Below, in pieces: positions 28,054 through 38,905 of a stretch of 64,000 nucleotides of DNA (position 1 is the first letter of the stretch; every line of letters begins with the position of its first letter). Both the position numbers and the translations under genes were made by a program. A model generated the notes under the pieces. The model searched no databases, was not told where the DNA came from, and was given only the letters and a program-made list of their open reading frames with translations. The stretch comes from Hanstruepera marina. Lineage in GTDB: Bacteria; Bacteroidota; Bacteroidia; Flavobacteriales; Flavobacteriaceae. Where the stretch lies: positions 868,001-932,000 of the forward strand of contig NZ_JAINVX010000001.1 of assembly GCF_019880635.1 (NCBI RefSeq). Reading direction: 5' to 3'.

Positions 28054-28082
28054 AAAAAAGTGGCTAGAAAGCCGCTTTTTTT
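28053..28082. terminator. Shared terminator between convergent genes
   Basis: The stem is an A run plus GTGGC (28053-28064) pairing with GCCGC plus a T run (28071-28082), with one G-U pair and a TAGAAA loop. It touches the stop codons of both neighbours (28053 and 28081), so it can end both transcripts. Confidence 0.8.
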
Positions 28083-31000
28083 AATCTACCTTTATTCTGA
28101 CACCTTCACTATGGCTGCTAAATTCTGGTGCATACATACTTTGAATCGTCGTAATACCATTGCTCATATTACCAGCATTATTAACTCTTAGGTCATACTC
28201 GAATACGTAAACGCCTTTTGGTAAATAGTCAAAAAAGAAATTGGTACTAGCATCTTCAGTGCTCTCATAGTAGCCCAATCCATCTTGCCATTTGTATTTT
28301 GATAATACGTTTACGGGTTCTAAACCTGATGCACGCATATCCTTCATATGAATAAATTCCATATCATGATTACTTCGGAGTTCAATACGAACGCGAACCA
28401 AATCACCAACTTTTAATAAGGTTTCTGAAGTGATTTCGGTGATTTCTTCACCTGTGTCGGTATTGATTTTTTTGAACAGTTTTTTCTTAAGTTTCAATGG
28501 TGTTTCTGCTGAAGTAATGTTATCCAAATCTTCAAAGTACTGCCAGTACAAAGCTCCCCAAGCTATACCATCGCCTTTTTTGGTTAAGGTTACTTCTGCC
28601 ATGTCAGGCTTTATTTCTTGGGTGTTCCAAGCTGTTTTATAATAGCCTGTTCCAGCTTCTACCTTGACGTTTTCTAATTTTGATGGTTCTATTTTTTCAC
28701 CACCAACCAGCACATCAACAGTTTCTGAGACACTCAACCAATCACTGCCTTGAAGCAACAAGGCATAAACGGCTTCGGTAGTGGCTTTGGTAGTTTCCCA
28801 TTTATTAGTCTGTTTATTTTTTAATAACCAAATTTTAAGATTATCAATTGTTTCTAGATTCTTCGTTTCACTCTGAATGACAGAACCCACTTCAGAAAAG
28901 GCTTCAATCAGTAAGGCTTGGGTTTCTATTGGTGCTTGATACCAATACCATGAAGCGGTATTCTCTTTCCAGTACATACCCAATTCCTCATTGGTAATGC
29001 TATTTTCTTTTAAAGACTTTAATATTTTTCCAGCTGTATCATCATCTTCCATTCGATGAGTAATCAATGCCATAAGACCTTTGGAATATAATGAACGACT
29101 CAACCAATACTTCTGAATTTGAGATAAGTAGTAAGCCGAAACCTCCTGAACCTTTTTAGACTGCTTTACCTCTGGGAAAAAGCTACGCATGTATAAATAA
29201 TTGAGTTGCCTATGACTTAAATGGTCTTTACTTAAATCAACGTCCTTATTGTATTTAGTAAGGTCTTTATATTCTTCTACAAATTCTGAATCAAGATAAT
29301 GTATGGCATTGTTGATCATTGATGCTTCACTATCATTTTGAACGACATTTAAATGTTTCAAGTGCCCAAAACCTGTGATGATGTGCTGGGTAATAAATCG
29401 GTTGGGACGTCCACCATGGAACCAAGGCCAAGCACCATTACTCATTTGATTTTGTTCCAGTTTTCTTAAGGCGTTTTGCAACTCGTTGTTCATTTTATTG
29501 AGATCAAACAACAAGGCAATACGCTTTTTTTGTTCGGTTTCACTTTGGGCATCACGTAACCAAGGCGTTTCTTGAATGAGGATATTTTTTAATTCTTCAT
29601 TCTTTTCTAAATTGGATAATAGCGCATCGGTATTTCGCCATTGGTTGAAGACCTCTTGAATACGCAGGTTGCTATTGGCAATATGACTCGCCAATGCATT
29701 GGCATAATAACGGCTAAAAGTTTGCTCATTGCATTCGTAAGGATATTCCATAAGGTAAGGCAACGCCTGAACAGCATACCAAGCGGGATTGGAAGTCATT
29801 TCCAACGTTAGTTTATGGTACTTGAGTGTTGTTGAGGTATTTGTTTTTAGTTTATCTAGCGTAAAAGTTCTGGTTTCATTACTCTTTATCCACATGGGTA
29901 AGGTTTCAGTCACCAACATCCTGTTGGATAAAACAGGCATAGCATTCTGTTCACCATCACTAAAATCACCTGCTTTAGCAACCACTTTGTATTGCACAGC
30001 ATCCACCGAATCTGGAATGGATAAACTCCAGGACACTTGGGTGTTGCCTTTGGCATCTACTGTGAAGGTCTCGACTACGCTCGACCTGACAATTTTGTCG
30101 GTTATCTCTTCACCTGAAACGGCATCAAACAATTGCAGCTGTGCTTGACCGGAAAGGTCACTATCCGAGAGGTTTGCAATTTTGGTACTAATAACAATTT
30201 TATCACCATGACGTAAAAAACGTGGTGTATTTGGAATAACCATCAATTCCTTTTGGGTAACAGTCTCCAAACTGATTACCGCACTTTCTAAAGTTTTGGT
30301 GTGTGCCAGTAATTGTAATTTCCACTGTGTTAGGGCTTCTGGAGTAGTAAAACTAAAACTCACATTACCTTCGGTGTCGGTTTGTAACTGTGGAAAGAAA
30401 AAGGCAGTTTCTTGTAGGTTTTTGCGGATGTTAACTTTGCTAAAGTCAATTTTCTTGGTAGTAACTACTATGACTCCATTTGCTCCTTGAGACCCATAAA
30501 GAGCGGCACCATTAGCCCCTTTTAAAACATTTACACTTTCAATTAATTCTGGTGATAATTCATCTAATTCTTCTTGAGAAACGATTTTTCCATCAATTAC
30601 TATTAAGAGTTTATTATTTTCCGGCAAGGATCTATTACCACGAAGAATTATTTTATTGGCTTTAAAATAATATTCAGGATTTTCAATATCTTCAGCAGTT
30701 GTAAAACGGTCTTGATGTTCAAAACTGACACTGTCTTTCTCTCTTTTGATTCCATAAGCTGTTACAACAACTTCTTTTAAATGGTCTTCAGATTCTTCAA
30801 CAACCAAACCTGAAACTCTTCCAGATAAAGAGTTTACTAAATAATGGTCTTGCCAAAAATAAAACCCAAACCAATTCAGTTGGTCATACGCTTGGTGCGG
30901 ATAGCTGATGTAAGCACGGTTTAAATTTTGAATTCTAAAGTTTCTGGTGCCAAAACTATAACCTGCGTTTCTATGGTTGTAACTATTATAAGATGCTCTG

Positions 31001-34000
31001 TAGATTGGGTTAAAATTCCAATCATGTGTTTTAAATTGGTCTAAAGACGCATCATACATACTCGCCAAGAGTTCGGCAGAGACTTTTTCGCCTTTAGGAC
31101 CTTTTATTTTAAAACTCCAAGTTTCCTCTTGTCCAGGTTGTAATTTATCTCTGAATGTGGTGGTTTCAATCTCTATATCGGTTTTCTGGTAAGGCACATT
31201 AATGTATTCCATACCTGATTGAAAACCATTGGCAAAGGAAAAACTGTAATGCACAGCAAAACCGCCTAAATCGTCTTTAGTAACCGGAATCTCAATGGTT
31301 TTCTTGTTATTGTTAAGCTCAAACACATAAGTGTTTATGGTCTTGTGGTCTTTTTCTACATCCAGTGTTACGGTTACGTTTTGTGCCGCAGAACCTACAG
31401 TAAGCAATACCGTTTCATTGGCCTGATAATTTGGTTTATTGGTGGTAATACTAAATAGTTGCTTATCGGCAAGGGTTTTATCTTGGTCACTATAGAGTGT
31501 GGTTTTGGTTTCAGCTTTCACATCTTGACCAAAGGCATCCTGACTTTCCAAAACAATCACATATTGACCAGATTGCCATTTTTTGATGTTACCTAAAGCT
31601 ATAGTTTTGGATGTTTCCGTATCAAAACGCTTTTCAAAAACCAGTTCGCCTTTTTCCCAATTATTTGGGTTGTGTTCATCTTGATACGCATCGTGTGGAA
31701 ATTTAGATTTAAACTCTGCTTCCGGAAGCATCGGGTAGTCTGGTGCTTGCCAAGGTCTTGCTCGCAGCACATAGTCAGGTGCTTTCAACTTATACATTTT
31801 AATGGTTCCTTTGGCAGGTACAAACTCACCGTTGAGGTTTTGGGTCGTGATTTCCAGTTTGTGCTCCTTGTTGGTTTTATTCAAAAGATTGTTAACCGAA
31901 ATAGATGCCGTCATAGCATGATAGCCAACATTGACTAGAGTGGTGGCACTTCGGGTTTCGCCATTGATATCTGTTACATCAGCCGTGACTTCATAATTAA
32001 AAATGGGTTGTGAGTCTTTGTCAACACTCAAATCAGGAATGGCTTTAAATGTGATTTCAAATTCGCCTTTTTCATTGGTGGTGGTTTCACCATGAGTGAT
32101 TTCTTGTGGCTCACTGTTAAAAGCTGGTCGATACCAATAATACCAACTAGGATAACGCACTTTTCGGTGGACGCGATACACTACCTTGGCATCAGTTATG
32201 TTACTGCCAGCATAGGCAAGCGCATTTCCGTTTAGGGTAATGGAATCATTAATTTTAAAGGTCTCGGTTATGGGTTTGAACGTGGTTTCAAACTTGGGAC
32301 GTTTGTATTCTTCTACAGAGATATAGACATTGGTATTAGAAAGTGTATGGGTTTTTCCCAATAGCTGTATTCTAAATTGGCCCGTTAAGCCACTACTCGG
32401 CAATATGAACTCACCCGAAACCGAACCAAAAGCATTGGTTCGTAAATCCAAACGATGCACTTCCTGTCCGTTCACATCATATAAAATCACATAGGTATCT
32501 TCATTAGGCAATACTTCCGATTTACCATCTTCGGTTCTTATGGCAATACCCTTAAAATGGACTGTTTGACCTGGTCTGTAAATACTTCGGTCTGTAAACA
32601 GAAACCCTTTGTAACTTATTGGATCGGGTTTTGGTGTTTGTGAACGGTTTATGTAGTAATCACCAAAATAGGCCTTGTCATCAGGTGTCTGGGCTTCAAT
32701 TTTTACTTGTGTCCATCGCTCGCCAGACTTTTCTATTTCTATAGTTCCTCTAGTATTGGAGGTCAGTTTTTTTTGTTTGGTGCCACTATTGTAGTTTTTT
32801 TGATAGGTGATTTTAACGTCAACACCCTCAATCGGCTTGCCATTATTTCGGTCAATAAACTGATAGCTTTGTTTGTGGTTCTCGCTTTTATCAACCAAAG
32901 CAATATTGGTCACCTGAATGGTTTGCGCCGCAAAAATGTCGCTATTAGGAACTTTGGCAACCATCAAGTAACGACCGTTCGCCAATAGCGGAATAAGGAC
33001 TTCAGTACTGTGTTGCTGATAGTCTTTAACATCGCGTAAATTGGATTCCCAAGATTGGGTAAGATTCAAAGTTCTAAAAAACTCAATTTGATCTTCTGTT
33101 CGGTATGTTTTATTAAAGATTTCAAACTGCTTTTCGGTTAGCATATAGGCACTGAAGTCTAATGCATTAATATTTTTATAGCGAACCAACAAACGCGATT
33201 CCTGTTGGATAGGTATGTAGCTTTCTATCTGTAGTTGCAAGCTAGGTTGCAGAATCTGTTGTTTGAGTGCCTCGCATTTTTCAGCAGCAACACTTTTTGG
33301 AAACGCAAAAATGACCGATTGGCAAATGTCATAGGCTTCCTTAATTTTCCATTGATGGGTTTCGTCGGTTTTAGGTTGATATTGACTGCCTTGTTGAAAC
33401 CATAGTTGCGCTATTTCAAAACTGTACAAACCTGATACAGGTTGTGAACCGTAAAAATTACGTGATGCTTTAAGCGTTTGTAATAACACGTCTTCCTTAT
33501 TGCTGAATGTGGCATGTTGCGATACAAACTGAAGTCGATTGATATCTACATCCACCAAGGCTTCAGGGGAAGAATTCTTTAAATGAAATTGGATGAGGTC
33601 CTGATAGATTTTTAAGGCCTGCAACTGCAATGAGGTAGAATCTTTTGAAGATAACTTCAAGCGAGAAAAGGCGTTAGCATCACTCAAATAATCCAGATTG
33701 TCAATTTCAAATTTATAAGCAGGTTTGGTGATGCTGTTTTCATCGGTTTTGAAGAATTCTAGGGCGTTGTGAGCCAGTAAATCAAATAAGCTAGGACGAA
33801 ATTGCTTGGAATTCTTTTGCTCGTTTATGATGACGGCATAATCTTCAAGCTTTGTTTGTTGCAAGATAAGTCCGTTTTGCAAAGAATTTTGATAGTGCAA
33901 TTGGATTTCAGCAAAAAGGGTTTCTAAATCCCAGGTTCTAAAATCGGTTTCATCAACTTTTTCAGAAGTATTGGTTCGGTTATAGAATTTCCATCTATTC

Positions 34001-34353
34001 TGTTGAAAATACTGCCAATACATAGTGGCTAGCATATTCTCTAAAACGTTTTGCGTAGGAGCCTGACTATTTGCTATTTGAGCTTTAAAGTCGTTTATGA
34101 TAGTCAACTGCGCATCTTCTTCCAGAATTAAGGCATACTTACTTTTAAATAATAATGATTTGATGTATTGCGGTTCGTTCTGTTCGGTCTTGGCTTGTTG
34201 CGAAATTTGTTCAACCAGCTCTAAAGCCGATTTAGGTAAACCTTCAGACTCCAGTTTGTCCACCTGTTTCCATAGTTTATCATAAGAAGGGTTTTGTGCT
34301 TGCGAAAAATGCATTGAACAAACAATCATTAAAATTGCAGTAAGCTGTTTCAT
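28081..34353 (-). CDS. Giant alpha-2-macroglobulin family protein with TonB plug-like insert
   Basis: A 2090-residue exported protein of the bacterial alpha-2-macroglobulin group. Layout: signal peptide ending SQAQ; a helical N-terminal region (about 30-380); macroglobulin repeats including MG2 (TDRSIYRPGQTVHFKG, about 580); a bait/MG region; a plug-like segment of the SusC/TonB-receptor type (about 1180-1305: EVVVTAYGIKR, IILRGNRSL, IESVNVLKGANGAALYG); the A2M domain from about 1310 (FFFPQLQTD...PEALTQWKL); the thioester site CNEQ (C1541); and the alpha-helical toroid to the C-terminus. Relatives trap attacking proteases by the thioester. No lipobox is present. The ATG at 34353 is chosen over ATGs at 34359 and 34362 because it begins the signal peptide. 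Confidence 0.9.
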   Translation of the reverse strand: MKQLTAILMIVCSMHFSQAQNPSYDKLWKQVDKLESEGLPKSALELVEQISQQAKTEQNEPQYIKSLLFKSKYALILEEDAQLTIINDFKAQIANSQAPTQNVLENMLATMYWQYFQQNRWKFYNRTNTSEKVDETDFRTWDLETLFAEIQLHYQNSLQNGLILQQTKLEDYAVIINEQKNSKQFRPSLFDLLAHNALEFFKTDENSITKPAYKFEIDNLDYLSDANAFSRLKLSSKDSTSLQLQALKIYQDLIQFHLKNSSPEALVDVDINRLQFVSQHATFSNKEDVLLQTLKASRNFYGSQPVSGLYSFEIAQLWFQQGSQYQPKTDETHQWKIKEAYDICQSVIFAFPKSVAAEKCEALKQQILQPSLQLQIESYIPIQQESRLLVRYKNINALDFSAYMLTEKQFEIFNKTYRTEDQIEFFRTLNLTQSWESNLRDVKDYQQHSTEVLIPLLANGRYLMVAKVPNSDIFAAQTIQVTNIALVDKSENHKQSYQFIDRNNGKPIEGVDVKITYQKNYNSGTKQKKLTSNTRGTIEIEKSGERWTQVKIEAQTPDDKAYFGDYYINRSQTPKPDPISYKGFLFTDRSIYRPGQTVHFKGIAIRTEDGKSEVLPNEDTYVILYDVNGQEVHRLDLRTNAFGSVSGEFILPSSGLTGQFRIQLLGKTHTLSNTNVYISVEEYKRPKFETTFKPITETFKINDSITLNGNALAYAGSNITDAKVVYRVHRKVRYPSWYYWYRPAFNSEPQEITHGETTTNEKGEFEITFKAIPDLSVDKDSQPIFNYEVTADVTDINGETRSATTLVNVGYHAMTASISVNNLLNKTNKEHKLEITTQNLNGEFVPAKGTIKMYKLKAPDYVLRARPWQAPDYPMLPEAEFKSKFPHDAYQDEHNPNNWEKGELVFEKRFDTETSKTIALGNIKKWQSGQYVIVLESQDAFGQDVKAETKTTLYSDQDKTLADKQLFSITTNKPNYQANETVLLTVGSAAQNVTVTLDVEKDHKTINTYVFELNNNKKTIEIPVTKDDLGGFAVHYSFSFANGFQSGMEYINVPYQKTDIEIETTTFRDKLQPGQEETWSFKIKGPKGEKVSAELLASMYDASLDQFKTHDWNFNPIYRASYNSYNHRNAGYSFGTRNFRIQNLNRAYISYPHQAYDQLNWFGFYFWQDHYLVNSLSGRVSGLVVEESEDHLKEVVVTAYGIKREKDSVSFEHQDRFTTAEDIENPEYYFKANKIILRGNRSLPENNKLLIVIDGKIVSQEELDELSPELIESVNVLKGANGAALYGSQGANGVIVVTTKKIDFSKVNIRKNLQETAFFFPQLQTDTEGNVSFSFTTPEALTQWKLQLLAHTKTLESAVISLETVTQKELMVIPNTPRFLRHGDKIVISTKIANLSDSDLSGQAQLQLFDAVSGEEITDKIVRSSVVETFTVDAKGNTQVSWSLSIPDSVDAVQYKVVAKAGDFSDGEQNAMPVLSNRMLVTETLPMWIKSNETRTFTLDKLKTNTSTTLKYHKLTLEMTSNPAWYAVQALPYLMEYPYECNEQTFSRYYANALASHIANSNLRIQEVFNQWRNTDALLSNLEKNEELKNILIQETPWLRDAQSETEQKKRIALLFDLNKMNNELQNALRKLEQNQMSNGAWPWFHGGRPNRFITQHIITGFGHLKHLNVVQNDSEASMINNAIHYLDSEFVEEYKDLTKYNKDVDLSKDHLSHRQLNYLYMRSFFPEVKQSKKVQEVSAYYLSQIQKYWLSRSLYSKGLMALITHRMEDDDTAGKILKSLKENSITNEELGMYWKENTASWYWYQAPIETQALLIEAFSEVGSVIQSETKNLETIDNLKIWLLKNKQTNKWETTKATTEAVYALLLQGSDWLSVSETVDVLVGGEKIEPSKLENVKVEAGTGYYKTAWNTQEIKPDMAEVTLTKKGDGIAWGALYWQYFEDLDNITSAETPLKLKKKLFKKINTDTGEEITEITSETLLKVGDLVRVRIELRSNHDMEFIHMKDMRASGLEPVNVLSKYKWQDGLGYYESTEDASTNFFFDYLPKGVYVFEYDLRVNNAGNMSNGITTIQSMYAPEFSSHSEGVRIKVD
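30066..30087. repeat. Palindromic repeat inside the A2M coding region
   Basis: AGGTC (30066-30070) and GACCT (30083-30087) flank TCGACTACGCTCGA. The unit resembles the short intergenic palindromes with TCGA...TCGA cores of Flavobacteria, and a related unit occurs at 37088-37108. Here it is in frame and adds residues VRSSVVE to the protein. Confidence 0.5.
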
Positions 34354-34368
34354 AGTCATCATTTTGTA

Positions 34369-34399
34369 CAAGGGTACATTCAAAAGTTGTTCCAAAAAA
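34369..34399 (-). promoter_or_regulatory. Likely promoter of the A2M gene
   Basis: Minus-strand TACCCTTG (34376-34369) is one mismatch from TAnnTTTG, with TTTT 19 bases upstream at 34399-34396. It would start transcription just before the chosen ATG at 34353. Confidence 0.4.
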
Positions 34400-35527: not shown

Positions 35528-36883
35528 ATGAATGTACATTTTATAGCTATAGGTGGTGCTGCTATGCACAATTTGGCCATTGCATTGCATAACAAAGGAT
35601 ATCACGTAACCGGAAGCGATGATACTATTTTTGATCCTTCAAAATCTCGTTTGCAAGCCAAAGGCTTGTTGCCTGAACAATTTGGGTGGTTTCCTGAAAA
35701 AATCAATGATAGTTTAGATGCCATCGTATTGGGGATGCACGCCAAAGCGGATAATCCAGAATTATTGAAAGCCCAGGAGTTGGGTCTTAAAATTTATAGC
35801 TATCCCGAATTTTTGTACGAACAATCCAAAGACAAAACGCGAGTCGTTATTGGAGGTAGCCATGGAAAGACCACTATTACATCCATGATTTTACATGTGA
35901 TGCATTATCACGATCGGGATGTGGATTATATGGTTGGCGCTCAATTGGAAGGCTTTGATGTGATGGTAAAACTTACCGAAGAGAACGATTTTATGGTTTT
36001 GGAAGGTGATGAGTATTTAAGCTCACCTATTGATAGACGACCAAAATTTCATTTGTACAAACCCAATATTGCCTTGTTGAGTGGCATTGCTTGGGATCAT
36101 ATTAATGTGTTTCCAACTTATGAGAATTATGTGGAACAGTTTAGCATTTTTGTAGATAGTATTGTACGTGGAGGCAGTATCACTTACAATGCCGAAGATC
36201 CGGAAGTGGCTAGAGTCGTGGAGGCCTCTGAAAACACCATTCGCAAATTACCCTATTATACACCCGAATACATGGTTGAAAATGGTGAAACCCTATTGGA
36301 AACACCTGAAGGACCTTTACCAATTGAGGTTTTTGGTAAACACAATCTGAACAATCTGGCAGGAGCCAAATGGATTTGCCAACATATAGGCATAGACGAA
36401 GACGATTTTTATGAAGCCATTGCCACTTTTAAAGGCGCCAGCAAACGTCTGGAAAAAATTGCCGAAAGCGAAACCAGCGTGGCTTATAAAGATTTTGCCC
36501 ATTCCCCAAGTAAGGTAGCTGCAACTACCAAAGCATTAAAAGAACAGTTTCCCAACAGGACTTTAGTAGCCTGTTTGGAATTACATACTTACAGTAGCTT
36601 GAATGCCGAATTTTTAAAGGAATATAAAGGAGCTTTGGGTGCTGCAGATGTAGCTGTGGTTTTCTATTCGCCTCACGCTGTCGAAATTAAAAAACTGGAA
36701 GAGGTTACCCACCAACAAATAGCCAATGCTTTTGAGCGCGACGACCTCATTATTTATACCAACCCAGACGATTTTAAAAACTATCTGTTTTCCCAAGACT
36801 TTAACAATAAAGCCTTATTGCTTATGAGTTCGGGGAATTATGGTGGTTTGGATTTTGATGAGGTAAAAAGTTTGATTGACTAG
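35528..36883 (+). CDS. mpl: UDP-N-acetylmuramate:L-alanyl-gamma-D-glutamyl-meso-diaminopimelate ligase
   Basis: Mpl re-uses murein tripeptide (Ala-Glu-DAP) by joining it to UDP-MurNAc. The 451-residue Mur ligase has an N-terminal Rossmann domain with FIAIGGAAMHNLA, the ATP P-loop GSHGKTT (110-116), LEGDEYLSSPIDRRPKFHLY, which is diagnostic for Mpl against MurC, and KDFAHSPSKVAATTKAL. Compared with MurC, the sequence FGKHNLNNLAGA and the overall length fit Mpl. murB in this window is from the same precursor pathway. After the stop lie about 300 bases of repeats. Confidence 0.93.
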   Translation: MNVHFIAIGGAAMHNLAIALHNKGYHVTGSDDTIFDPSKSRLQAKGLLPEQFGWFPEKINDSLDAIVLGMHAKADNPELLKAQELGLKIYSYPEFLYEQSKDKTRVVIGGSHGKTTITSMILHVMHYHDRDVDYMVGAQLEGFDVMVKLTEENDFMVLEGDEYLSSPIDRRPKFHLYKPNIALLSGIAWDHINVFPTYENYVEQFSIFVDSIVRGGSITYNAEDPEVARVVEASENTIRKLPYYTPEYMVENGETLLETPEGPLPIEVFGKHNLNNLAGAKWICQHIGIDEDDFYEAIATFKGASKRLEKIAESETSVAYKDFAHSPSKVAATTKALKEQFPNRTLVACLELHTYSSLNAEFLKEYKGALGAADVAVVFYSPHAVEIKKLEEVTHQQIANAFERDDLIIYTNPDDFKNYLFSQDFNNKALLLMSSGNYGGLDFDEVKSLID

Positions 36884-36904
36884 TCTTGCTATTATGAAAA
36901 AACC

Positions 36905-36994
36905 TGTCATTCCAGCGCAGGCAGGAATCTATTGTAATAACAAGTGACGTGATACGGTAATCTTTTTAGATTCCGCATCAAGTGCGGAATGACA
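36905..36994. repeat. Dispersed repeat, inverted pair (copy 2)
   Basis: TGTCATTCC (36905-36913) and its exact reverse complement GGAATGACA (36986-36994) enclose about 72 bases. The first 26 bases match 25081-25106 at 22 positions. The inner part also has TTCCGCA...TGCGGAA pairing near its right end, so a folded RNA or DNA hairpin is possible. Confidence 0.65.
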
Positions 36995-37087
36995 AATCAG
37001 TTGTCATTACGGGACAGAGCGTTTAAAAACAGTTTGGTAATCTATATGTTTGAGTCTATCGAGTAAGAGATTGCTTCACTTTAGCTT

Positions 37088-37120
37088 GTCTTGAGCGACA
37101 GTCGAAAGGTTCGCAATGAC
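37088..37120. repeat. Repeat unit with TCGA-type core
   Basis: The sequence TCTTGAGCGACAGTCGAAAGG followed by TTCGCAATGACG looks like a variant of the palindrome found inside the A2M gene (reverse complement core GAGCG..AGTCGA), followed by a partial GTCATTGCGAA-type unit. The relation to known repeat families is from memory. Confidence 0.45.
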
Positions 37121-37183
37121 GTCGTTAAGAGGAGGCACGACCAAATAATCTGTTTTTTTATCTATCATCAAGTTAATTTTTTA

Positions 37184-37764
37184 CTATTCAAAATTATCTT
37201 TTACTACTTTGGTTTTTGATAATAAGTCGTGAATTCCATTTTTCATAAACAAGAATGAAAGTCGGTCAAATGGAATAAGTCGGCAAAAGGTCCGGGTGAC
37301 TATATCTCCATTAGTTGGTTTTTCTCCGTTCATTTTCACAACGGTTGTTTTGGTTACATATTTTCCAACAGTTTTTTGAAATTTGGTTTCCATTATCGCA
37401 TAGTACCCAATAAAAGTTCCAAAAATTATTAAATATCCTATGAGCATTTGAATGTCATTATTTGCATTCAAGGGATAAGTTAGAATTCCTGCAATTAGTA
37501 TCCAAATAATAAAGTCAATTATAAAATTCACAAATCGAATACCTGGACCAGCTATATTGGAGTCAACTTTTTCTTTCTGTTCTTTTTCTGCTACTGCCTT
37601 TCTCGAATTGTTTCAAATTCAGATGTATCAATGTTTCGTTTTTCAACTTCTGCATCTGCTGCCTCGATTGCAGTGGGATTATATCTTGCCCTTTCAATGG
37701 TTACAATCTTAATTAATTCTTCATTTGTCCTTTCAGACATCACTTTCGCAAATTCGTTTTCCAT
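37184..37764 (-). pseudogene. RDD family membrane protein, disrupted by a single-base frameshift
   Basis: The gene starts at the ATG at 37764 (MENEFAKVMSERTNEELIKI) and reads 57 codons to a TAG at 37593-37591. In the next frame the protein continues without a stop (KAVAEKEQKEKVDSN, IAGPGIRFVNFI) into 115 residues of an RDD domain with membrane helices, FQKTVGKYVTKTTVV and TFCRLIPFDRLSFL. Adding one A to the AAA run near 37601-37603 restores one frame of about 193 residues (IREKAVAEKE at the junction). Either a real null mutation or a sequencing slip in a short A run is possible. The function of RDD proteins is mostly unknown, with transport suggested for some. Confidence 0.85.
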
Positions 37765-37825
37765 TAGTTTATTTTTATTGAATTTTTGGTTAATATCATT
37801 TCGTCCTAATTAGCAACGAAGCTTT

Positions 37826-38200
37826 TTATCTATTAAATAAATATGAATAAACAACTACTGAAACAAACCCTAAAATAACTATCAACCAAGAAGCAATTTT
37901 AAAACGGAAATTATCCCACTTCGAATCTTTGATTAAATTATAAATAGTGGCATACTTTTTCTCATAAAAAAAGTAATAAAATAGCAATAACAAAAACCCA
38001 ACAAATAGGATAATAACAGAAATTTTAGCGAGTTTCACATCCAATAAAGCAAAAGTAAAGAGTAAAATAGATGTAAACAACATACTTAAAGAGCAGGCAA
38101 CAATTCCATAAGCGGTTAAATGCGGAATGTCATTCGAATAATTTCCATCTTTATAATATGCATTATAAACGTGAAAGAATAAAATATTTAAAATCTTCAT
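37826..38200 (-). CDS. Small integral membrane protein of unknown function
   Basis: A 124-residue protein with three hydrophobic helices (about 28-52, 58-76, 104-122) and a short charged loop between the second and third. No known motif is seen. The start at 38200 is an ATG. It is A+T-rich, like its accessory neighbourhood (the broken RDD gene is 61 bases downstream). Real coding potential is likely but not proven. Confidence 0.6.
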   Translation of the reverse strand: MKILNILFFHVYNAYYKDGNYSNDIPHLTAYGIVACSLSMLFTSILLFTFALLDVKLAKISVIILFVGFLLLLFYYFFYEKKYATIYNLIKDSKWDNFRFKIASWLIVILGFVSVVVYSYLFNR

Positions 38201-38311
38201 ATGTTTTTATAACAGCAAATTTGCTGGAGCATTATTGGTAACAATTTGTGGTCATTAAATAATTTATATCCACCGATAACGAAGTTCGATTATTTTATTT
38301 AAAAAGTCAAA

Positions 38312-38905
38312 TCAAAACACCCTATCCAAAAAGGCTTTGATGCTTTCTTGGTTTTTTTGAATGAGTTCGGTTTTGGCATTTTGGGTGTCAGTCGTTTTCT
38401 TATCTTGTGAGAGTTTAAATTTACCTTCCCAATCCGTAATAGTTATTTCAAACATCTTGATATAGTCTAAATTCGCTTCCATTCTTGGATTATTTGCATC
38501 CAATACATACTTATGGTCTGGCGCTTCCAAAAACTCGGTCATCGTGATTAATGACCGCTTAAGTGCCTCTTTACTTTCAATAGCTTTTACAGTACCTTTT
38601 ACATGTACTTTAATGTAATTCCAAGTAGGTAATTGAGTAGTTGTATAAACCGATGGAGAAATGTAACATTGCGGTCCTGAAAAAATAAGGTTCACACTAT
38701 TGTTGTCTTTCAACAAGGGCGTCTGCGGATTGTAAATATCAATGTGTCCAATAAGTTTTCCTTCATCGTTTAATATCAATGGTAAATGGGTAATGAGCGG
38801 TTCTTGGTCTTTTACAGATATTACCGTAGCCAAAGGATAGGTTTTTATAACCTCTATTAAATGTTCGCGATTATGGTCTTGATGGTGTGGTGGTGGATAG
38901 GTCAT
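38312..38905 (-). CDS. FMN-binding PaiB-like protein
   Basis: A 197-residue protein of the PaiB family (FMN-binding split-barrel fold; the Bacillus member is called a negative regulator of sporulation and protease genes). The N-terminus MTYPPPHHQDHNREHL, with LPLILNDEGKLIGHI, NLIFSGPQCYISPSVY and LPTWNYIKVHVKG, is typical. Despite the family name there is no helix-turn-helix, and a flavin-binding or reductase role is as likely as regulation. Its start shares 4 bases with the upstream DUF1569 stop (TAATG), so they are coupled. Confidence 0.88.
   Translation of the reverse strand: MTYPPPHHQDHNREHLIEVIKTYPLATVISVKDQEPLITHLPLILNDEGKLIGHIDIYNPQTPLLKDNNSVNLIFSGPQCYISPSVYTTTQLPTWNYIKVHVKGTVKAIESKEALKRSLITMTEFLEAPDHKYVLDANNPRMEANLDYIKMFEITITDWEGKFKLSQDKKTTDTQNAKTELIQKNQESIKAFLDRVF

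Follow-up and report, generated by a model that had tools for sequence, protein, structure and literature searches.

How did a small membrane-protein gene of Hanstruepera marina come to be divided between two reading frames, and how did it reach the place where it now lies? The gene takes up 581 bp of the window (the whole 64,000-nt stretch of contig NZ_JAINVX010000001.1 that was analysed). On the minus strand, the ATG at 37764 opens a frame reading MENEFAKVMSERTNEELI... that runs into a TAG at 37593-37591 after 57 codons. The adjoining minus-strand frame begins KAVAEKEQKEKVDSNIAGPGIRFV... and continues for 138 residues to a TAG ending at 37184; from 37600 to 37184 it matches the RDD family PF06271 at 49.6 bits, against a Pfam gathering cut-off of 24.1. 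In a three-way DNA alignment, the window copy has one single-base gap, within the AAAGG at 37601-37597 (minus strand), and this is the only lesion in the gene; the alignment assigns the loss to the run as a whole rather than to any one of its bases. A sequence-only reading of the window had anticipated this layout: a minus-strand reading from that ATG to that TAG, which sequence and translation bear out; a shift of frame near 37601-37603 into the RDD domain, where both the gap and the PF06271 match fall; and a single missing base, with a joined length of about 193 residues, in agreement with the 55 and 138 residues of the two parts.

In the assembly, then, the window gene consists of a leader of about 60 residues and an RDD domain, and its frame is broken by one base. 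The sole start listed in the RDD frame is a GTG at 37531 (115 aa), two codons past the arginine of GIRFV (37537-37535), and the RDD gene of the window does not form one open frame that includes the arginine. As sequenced, it would yield a leader peptide and, at best, a poorly started RDD fragment lacking that arginine, and it has probably no function. The features discussed here are collected in Table 1.

Table 1 Features of the RDD gene and its surroundings (window coordinates)
Feature	Position	Strand	Evidence or remark
5' fragment, conserved leader (MENEF...RERQ)	37591..37764	-	57-codon ORF; leader present in intact homologues
3' fragment, RDD membrane domain	37184..37600	-	138 codons; PF06271, 49.6 bits
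Frame break site	37596..37602	-	Within GAAAGG; one base fewer than in homologues
DNA preceding the ATG	37765..37825	-	Contains CGTTGCTAATTA; no recognisable attC-like site
Neighbouring 124-aa ORF, by eye for a membrane protein	37826..38200	-	No Pfam family above cut-off
Variable insertion spot between convergent Mur-ligase and FMN_bind_2 genes	36884..38311	.	Genus comparison
Left flank, Mur ligase family gene	35528..36883	+	5/5 genomes of the genus
Right flank, FMN_bind_2 gene	38312..38905	-	5/5 genomes of the genus

The state of the gene elsewhere was examined in three sets of genomes. A DNA search of 60 relatives with the 581-base query returned, besides the window genome itself, only two matches, one of 79% identity over query bases 1-580 (G025) and one of 76% over bases 1-568 (G023). 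These two genomes belong to two other genera and encode uninterrupted proteins of 200 and 193 aa, respectively, both beginning MENEF. The frame break is thus more than a chance apposition of two ORFs, since relatives in two other genera encode the leader and the RDD domain without interruption. Of the 397 genomes of the family that were sampled, 18 contain a homologue that matches from residue 1 to at least residue 197 of 200; an internal TAA was flagged in two such end-to-end homologues (G184 and G061). Finally, a scan of species genomes gave 32 loci, in records of Flavobacteriaceae genera, of "Flavobacteriaceae bacterium" and, once, of "Bacteroidia bacterium". The sequence-only reading had named leaderless homologues, starting at the RDD part, as the finding that would speak against it. 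There were none: all 32 loci match the full-length query from residue 1, one of them in two pieces (L113) and two only in part (L114, residues 1-53; L115, residues 1-26), and the end-to-end comparison that it called for shows leader and RDD domain encoded as a single open frame at 28 of the 32. The four remaining loci comprise a stop after 134 residues (L095), a frameshifted and decayed copy (L113), a copy cut after 53 residues (L114) and one that ends at the end of its contig (L115). Decay of this gene is therefore recurrent, by nonsense mutation in L095, by frameshift with decay in L113 and by truncation in L114.

The fragments in the window have kept their conserved residues. Scored on the columns that 90% or more of the 28 intact copies conserve, the fragments together depart at 3 of 67 positions, compared with 17 of 63 in the decayed L113; intact copies, each scored against the others, show 0-20 departures with a median of 2.5. 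This retention implies that the break is either recent or a sequencing artefact. More distant homologues, all below 60% identity, were found on 64 plasmid records, 47 of them from Acinetobacter. A leader-like stretch (37% identity) also opens a different protein of 240 aa (L075:1130-1852, in G268), suggesting that the leader may be a stand-alone domain.

If the break is an artefact, the cell would carry an unbroken gene, and sequencing or assembly would have dropped a base from a short run. The presence of a single lesion in 581 bp, the retention of conserved residues at the level of intact copies (3/67) and the mostly intact state of the homologues (28/32) would all fit such an error. Against it, homopolymer errors typically affect runs longer than the three A found here, the assembly consists of 13 contigs at 99.99% completeness, and other members of the family, L095, L113 and L114, are broken as well. 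We regard an error as possible but somewhat doubtful; it bears on the frame break only and is compatible with the cassette origin discussed below. Alternatively, the two frames could be joined in translation by programmed -1 frameshifting, for which the clean two-frame layout and the retention of conserved residues in both frames might be cited. By eye, however, the overlap CGA GAA AGG contains no slippery heptamer of the form X XXY YYZ, and because 28 of 32 homologues are encoded in a single frame, a shift is not a feature of the family. Programmed frameshifting was rejected on these two grounds, and we give it almost no credence.

Judged solely by its RDD relatives, the intact protein may be a small membrane protein of ion transport or regulation. 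The window gene shares with RDD family proteins a PF06271 domain above the Pfam cut-off. Members of this family include an RDD protein of Halobacillus andaensis described as a Na+(Li+,K+)/H+ antiporter (PMC5996927) and SppI of Bacillus subtilis, an RDD relative described as an inhibitor of SppA (PMC7568657). Unlike these two, the window family has an N-terminal leader, for which no Pfam family was found at E <= 0.1; its members are often cassette-borne, as described next, and the copy in the window is frame-broken.

The flanks of the relatives bear on how the gene came to its place. In many of them the 5' boundary is exact and usually reads ..CG^TTGGCATTAAT.., and on the 3' side TAAAATACTAATGCCAAC is followed by an attC-like imperfect palindrome of 130-150 bp. 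These elements were first found by nhmmer from three copied seeds; 51 were aligned, and a covariance model, R1, was built from them. The RNAalifold consensus has only 10 pairs, five of which show two-sided changes, so R1 is mainly a sequence model. No Rfam family matched at its gathering score in eight loci. With the proviso that the 51 training elements are in part those counted here beside genes, and below in genomes and at the insertion spot, an R1 element (E <= 0.01) lies directly beside the gene at 17 of the 32 loci, and on both sides at seven. The other 15 loci have none at this threshold, so the gene is not confined to recognisable cassettes. The cassettes of several relatives sit within arrays of other one-gene cassettes, and Winogradskyella sediminis (L098) has the gene as its first cassette at an attI-like site, directly behind a recombinase of 401 aa. 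The RDD gene family is thus cassette-borne in many Flavobacteriaceae genomes.

For the window copy, both its relatives and its surroundings were compared. Its six closest DNA relatives among 34 loci (L085, L087, L098, L059, L106 and L084) each have at least one adjacent attC-like element. By eye, AAACTAATGG in the DNA just before its ATG recurs at the 5' ends of relatives borne on cassettes, and ATATTAACCAA recurs in one relative (L086). Its flanking Mur-ligase and FMN_bind_2 genes adjoin in all five genomes of the genus, and what lies between them in the window has no counterpart in the corresponding spot (L055-L058) of any of the four congeners. In two of these, G003 and G004, the spot holds a related ORF common to both (36% identity over 214 residues). 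In two, G002 and G004, it holds an attC-like element (nhmmer E of 4e-6 and 8e-6; R1 scores of 89.9 and 100.3 bits, both elements being among the R1 training set). R1 detects no such element in the spot of G001, of G003 or of the window genome (G000), nor anywhere inside the window, where the best match has an E of 0.45. Unmatched DNA in the window, together with elements in G002 and G004 between conserved flanks, marks the spot as an insertion place. None of the four congeners has a close homologue of the gene; their weak RDD matches (30% identity in G002, E of 1.4e-6 in G001 and 9.1e-8 in G003) are probably general RDD paralogues. With no attC in the window, the argument for the window copy's own cassette origin comes from its relatives and from two congeners, and on that basis we consider it likely that this copy, too, arrived as a cassette.

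Two further features of the window were noted in passing. The DNA at 36940-37130, just past the position expected for a cassette attC, has the look of a dispersed repeat (GTCATTGCGAACC..., GTCATTCCGCACTTGATGCGGAATC). An ORF of 2104 aa at 28081-34395 on the minus strand, alpha-2-macroglobulin-like by eye, embeds a stretch resembling a TonB plug (DGKIVSQEELDEL...GANGVIVVTTKK), again by eye.

Elements of this type are numerous in the genus. At E <= 0.1 there are at least 49 R1 matches in the window genome and at least 22-46 in the four congeners, whole-genome counts being lower bounds because few candidates, here 150, were scored per genome. Palindromes of the attC type also occur scattered singly in genomes. 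Outside the window, the window genome carries arrays on four contigs, C5 (L126), C7 (L128), C8 (L129) and C9 (L127). Those at G000:C5:1-12154 and G000:C9:1-13060 each follow a tyrosine recombinase (375 and 402 aa), and their elements are on the strand of the recombinase. Judged by eye, some cassettes of these G000 arrays encode small membrane proteins; one ORF resembles an acetyltransferase and two resemble DNA methyltransferases.

Three properties of the arrays were tested. The pairing of cassette ends was scored on 114 elements, made up of 85 of the 109 array matches and 29 of the 51 aligned elements; weak matches, most matches cut by contig ends and the loci L138, L142, L143 and L145 were left out, and only consecutive elements less than 3 kb apart with recognisable ends were paired. 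Over 90 such pairs, drawn from 18 loci, 7.03 of 9 bases at a cassette's start agreed with the reverse complement of that cassette's end, as against a mean of 3.36 (sd 0.16) and a maximum of 3.93 in 2000 shuffles of the cassette ends. Among the same 114 elements, no locus has both strands.

Linkage to a recombinase was examined at 40 recombinase places, one per genome, that had taken no part in the building of R1. They were chosen among about 150 listed partial matches to IntI as the top-scoring ones below ten already used, and are therefore not a random sample. R1 elements lie near the recombinase at 27 of the 40, and at 25 of the 28 where the contig continues for 2 kb or more downstream; 87 of the 89 elements are downstream of the recombinase and on its strand. 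Control stretches of similar length around general RDD paralogues contained R1 elements in 1 of 20 cases. Of the 13 places free of elements, ten have less than 1.1 kb of contig downstream, and three (L173, L177 and L184) are free of them despite more than 3.7 kb.

The third property is an attI-like site. The window genome (L126) and G001 (L130) have a recombinase in common, after which 43 bases are identical through CAATTGTTAG; past this sequence the two diverge. Over 49 sites, the 75 bases behind the recombinase have a palindrome score of 5.8, compared with 2.7 (sd 1.8) after shuffling, and the palindromes usually, though not always, precede G^TT. The recombination core of attC is GTTRRRY / RYYYAAC; the element ends carry AAC and G^TT, mostly as TTR, but with the next bases specific to the cassette and often not RRY. 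In the three elements that were folded, the bottom strand was the more stable each time, as in attC (z of -2.9 to -4.3, against -1.8 to -3.9 for the top strand). What is found, then, are tandem cassettes in one orientation divided by imperfect palindromes of the attC type, as expected of an integron, and the end pairing, the recombinase linkage and the attI-like site together support a cassette system.

The recombinase, in contrast, is not the one that defines an integron. In Pfam, all six recombinases that were scanned have a phage-integrase catalytic domain and a SAM-like domain. The best NCBIfam model for all six is NF040815 (recomb_XerA_Arch), above its cut-off in three and just below it in three; this model is named 'site-specific tyrosine recombinase/integron integrase', and its output has no tie to attC-like arrays. 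The IntI model TIGR02249 matches all six below its cut-off, in two stretches, and in an alignment with IntI4 (2a3v), chain residues 180-246 are passed over opposite just 24 residues of the query. Across 51 of 52 recombinases in which it could be measured, the spacing from KG.K.R to HxLRH is 65-72 residues, as against 106 in true IntI (five found by motif among 20 loci). The IntI-specific insertion before box II, a mark of integrons, is thus missing from these recombinases. Most of them (47 of 52) are 360-437 aa long, and in the six scanned about 90-110 residues precede the SAM-like domain. As they lack the IntI insertion, the case for their role as cassette integrases comes from linkage and not from activity. 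On that evidence, it is quite probable that the neighbouring recombinase moves the cassettes.

Comparison with known systems places the platform near integrons and outside them. Like the integrons of IntI, it has an attI-like site next to the recombinase, one-gene cassettes arrayed in tandem and in a single orientation, foldable attC-like sites and a G^TT boundary; unlike them, its recombinase has no IntI insertion, and its attC-like sites differ from those at true IntI loci (1/20 with an R1 element). As in Treponema-type integrons, where intI is described as transcribed toward attI (PMC3607928), the recombinase points toward the array and in the direction of the cassettes (87/89 elements). 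It differs from these, too, in lacking the IntI insertion and in belonging to a different phylum. Integron recombination is held to need the IntI-specific insertion (PMC8138268), and archaeal IntIs are said to retain the IntI-specific domain (PMC9668308). Bacteroidota (PMC8618304), or Bacteroidetes/Chlorobi (PMC2426708), are listed among the integron-bearing phyla; taxon-specific attC models were built in PMC8352920, in the main text of which the string "Bacteroid-" is absent. Because the insertion that defines IntI was tested for and is missing, we treat the platform as integron-like in its working but do not count it among the IntI integrons.

On the whole, we hold with fairly good confidence that the window contains a broken two-part gene, probably once a cassette of this integron-like platform. 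The steps by which this could have come about can be outlined as follows. The recombinase would recognise a short palindromic attI-like site just past its own stop codon, as well as the folded attC-like sites of circular cassettes, and would cut between G and TT so that cassettes are inserted in one orientation. Cassettes would also land elsewhere, for example between convergent genes. The window gene would have come in as one of these cassettes, settled between the Mur-ligase and FMN_bind_2 genes, and then lost its attC; the frame break would have come last, whether real or apparent through a sequencing error.

Two other explanations of the palindromes were considered. They might be repeats of the REP or MITE kind that accumulate between genes, with the recombinase a coincidental neighbour, and the elements scattered singly in genomes would agree with this. 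Against this, the elements scored for end pairing keep to one strand within each of 18 loci, cassette ends pair with their own partner and not with others, the boundary is usually G^TT, and elements accompany the recombinase at 25 of 28 places against 1 of 20 controls. The end pairing, the strand and the linkage led us to reject this reading, which we judge very improbable. The arrays might instead be ordinary integrons served in trans by a true IntI from other Bacteroidota. A supply of the enzyme exists, since 84 of 296 Bacteroidota genomes, none of them from Flavobacteriaceae, pass the IntI cut-off (TIGR02249), and one true IntI locus has an R1 element beside it. Yet none of the 397 genomes of the family passes that cut-off, the attI-like sites lie behind the XerA-like gene, and an R1 element is nearby at only 1 of 20 true IntI loci, as against 25 of 28 loci of the XerA-like recombinase. 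True IntI as the driver was rejected on the first and last of these counts, and we consider its action in trans unlikely, if less so than the coincidental repeats.

The distribution of the elements in the phylum was also compared with that of IntI. With 10 candidates scored per genome, R1 elements occur at E <= 1e-5 in at least 72 of 296 Bacteroidota genomes and in at least 19 of 30 genomes of the family. Outside the family, true IntI is present in 20 of 53 R1-positive and 64 of 213 R1-negative genomes (R1-positives being those among the matches listed, and the two surveys being assumed to cover the same 296 genomes), so R1 elements do not track IntI. The IntI locus with an element beside it (L228:3843-3964, in G482) belongs to another Bacteroidota family, and its element is of the Flavobacteriaceae type; it is possibly a cassette crossing between two systems.

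Taken alone, the frame break is an ordinary matter of a pseudogene or of sequencing. The platform from which the gene appears to have come would mean more. The evidence inclines us to the view that Flavobacteriaceae carry a second kind of integron, in which a XerA-like integrase without the IntI insertion (never had, or lost) takes up one-gene cassettes at a palindromic attI that follows the integrase gene and has scattered cassettes, including the RDD gene, over the chromosomes. Among the papers listed by full-text searches of the open-access literature, none describes cassette arrays or a non-IntI integron in Flavobacteriaceae. The arrays may account for breaks in assemblies, as at 10 of the 40 recombinase places the contig ends within 1.1 kb on the array side. 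If the recombinase works as proposed, folded attC sites could be recombined in a second way, and among these Bacteroidota many small orphan genes would become recognisable as mobile cassettes.
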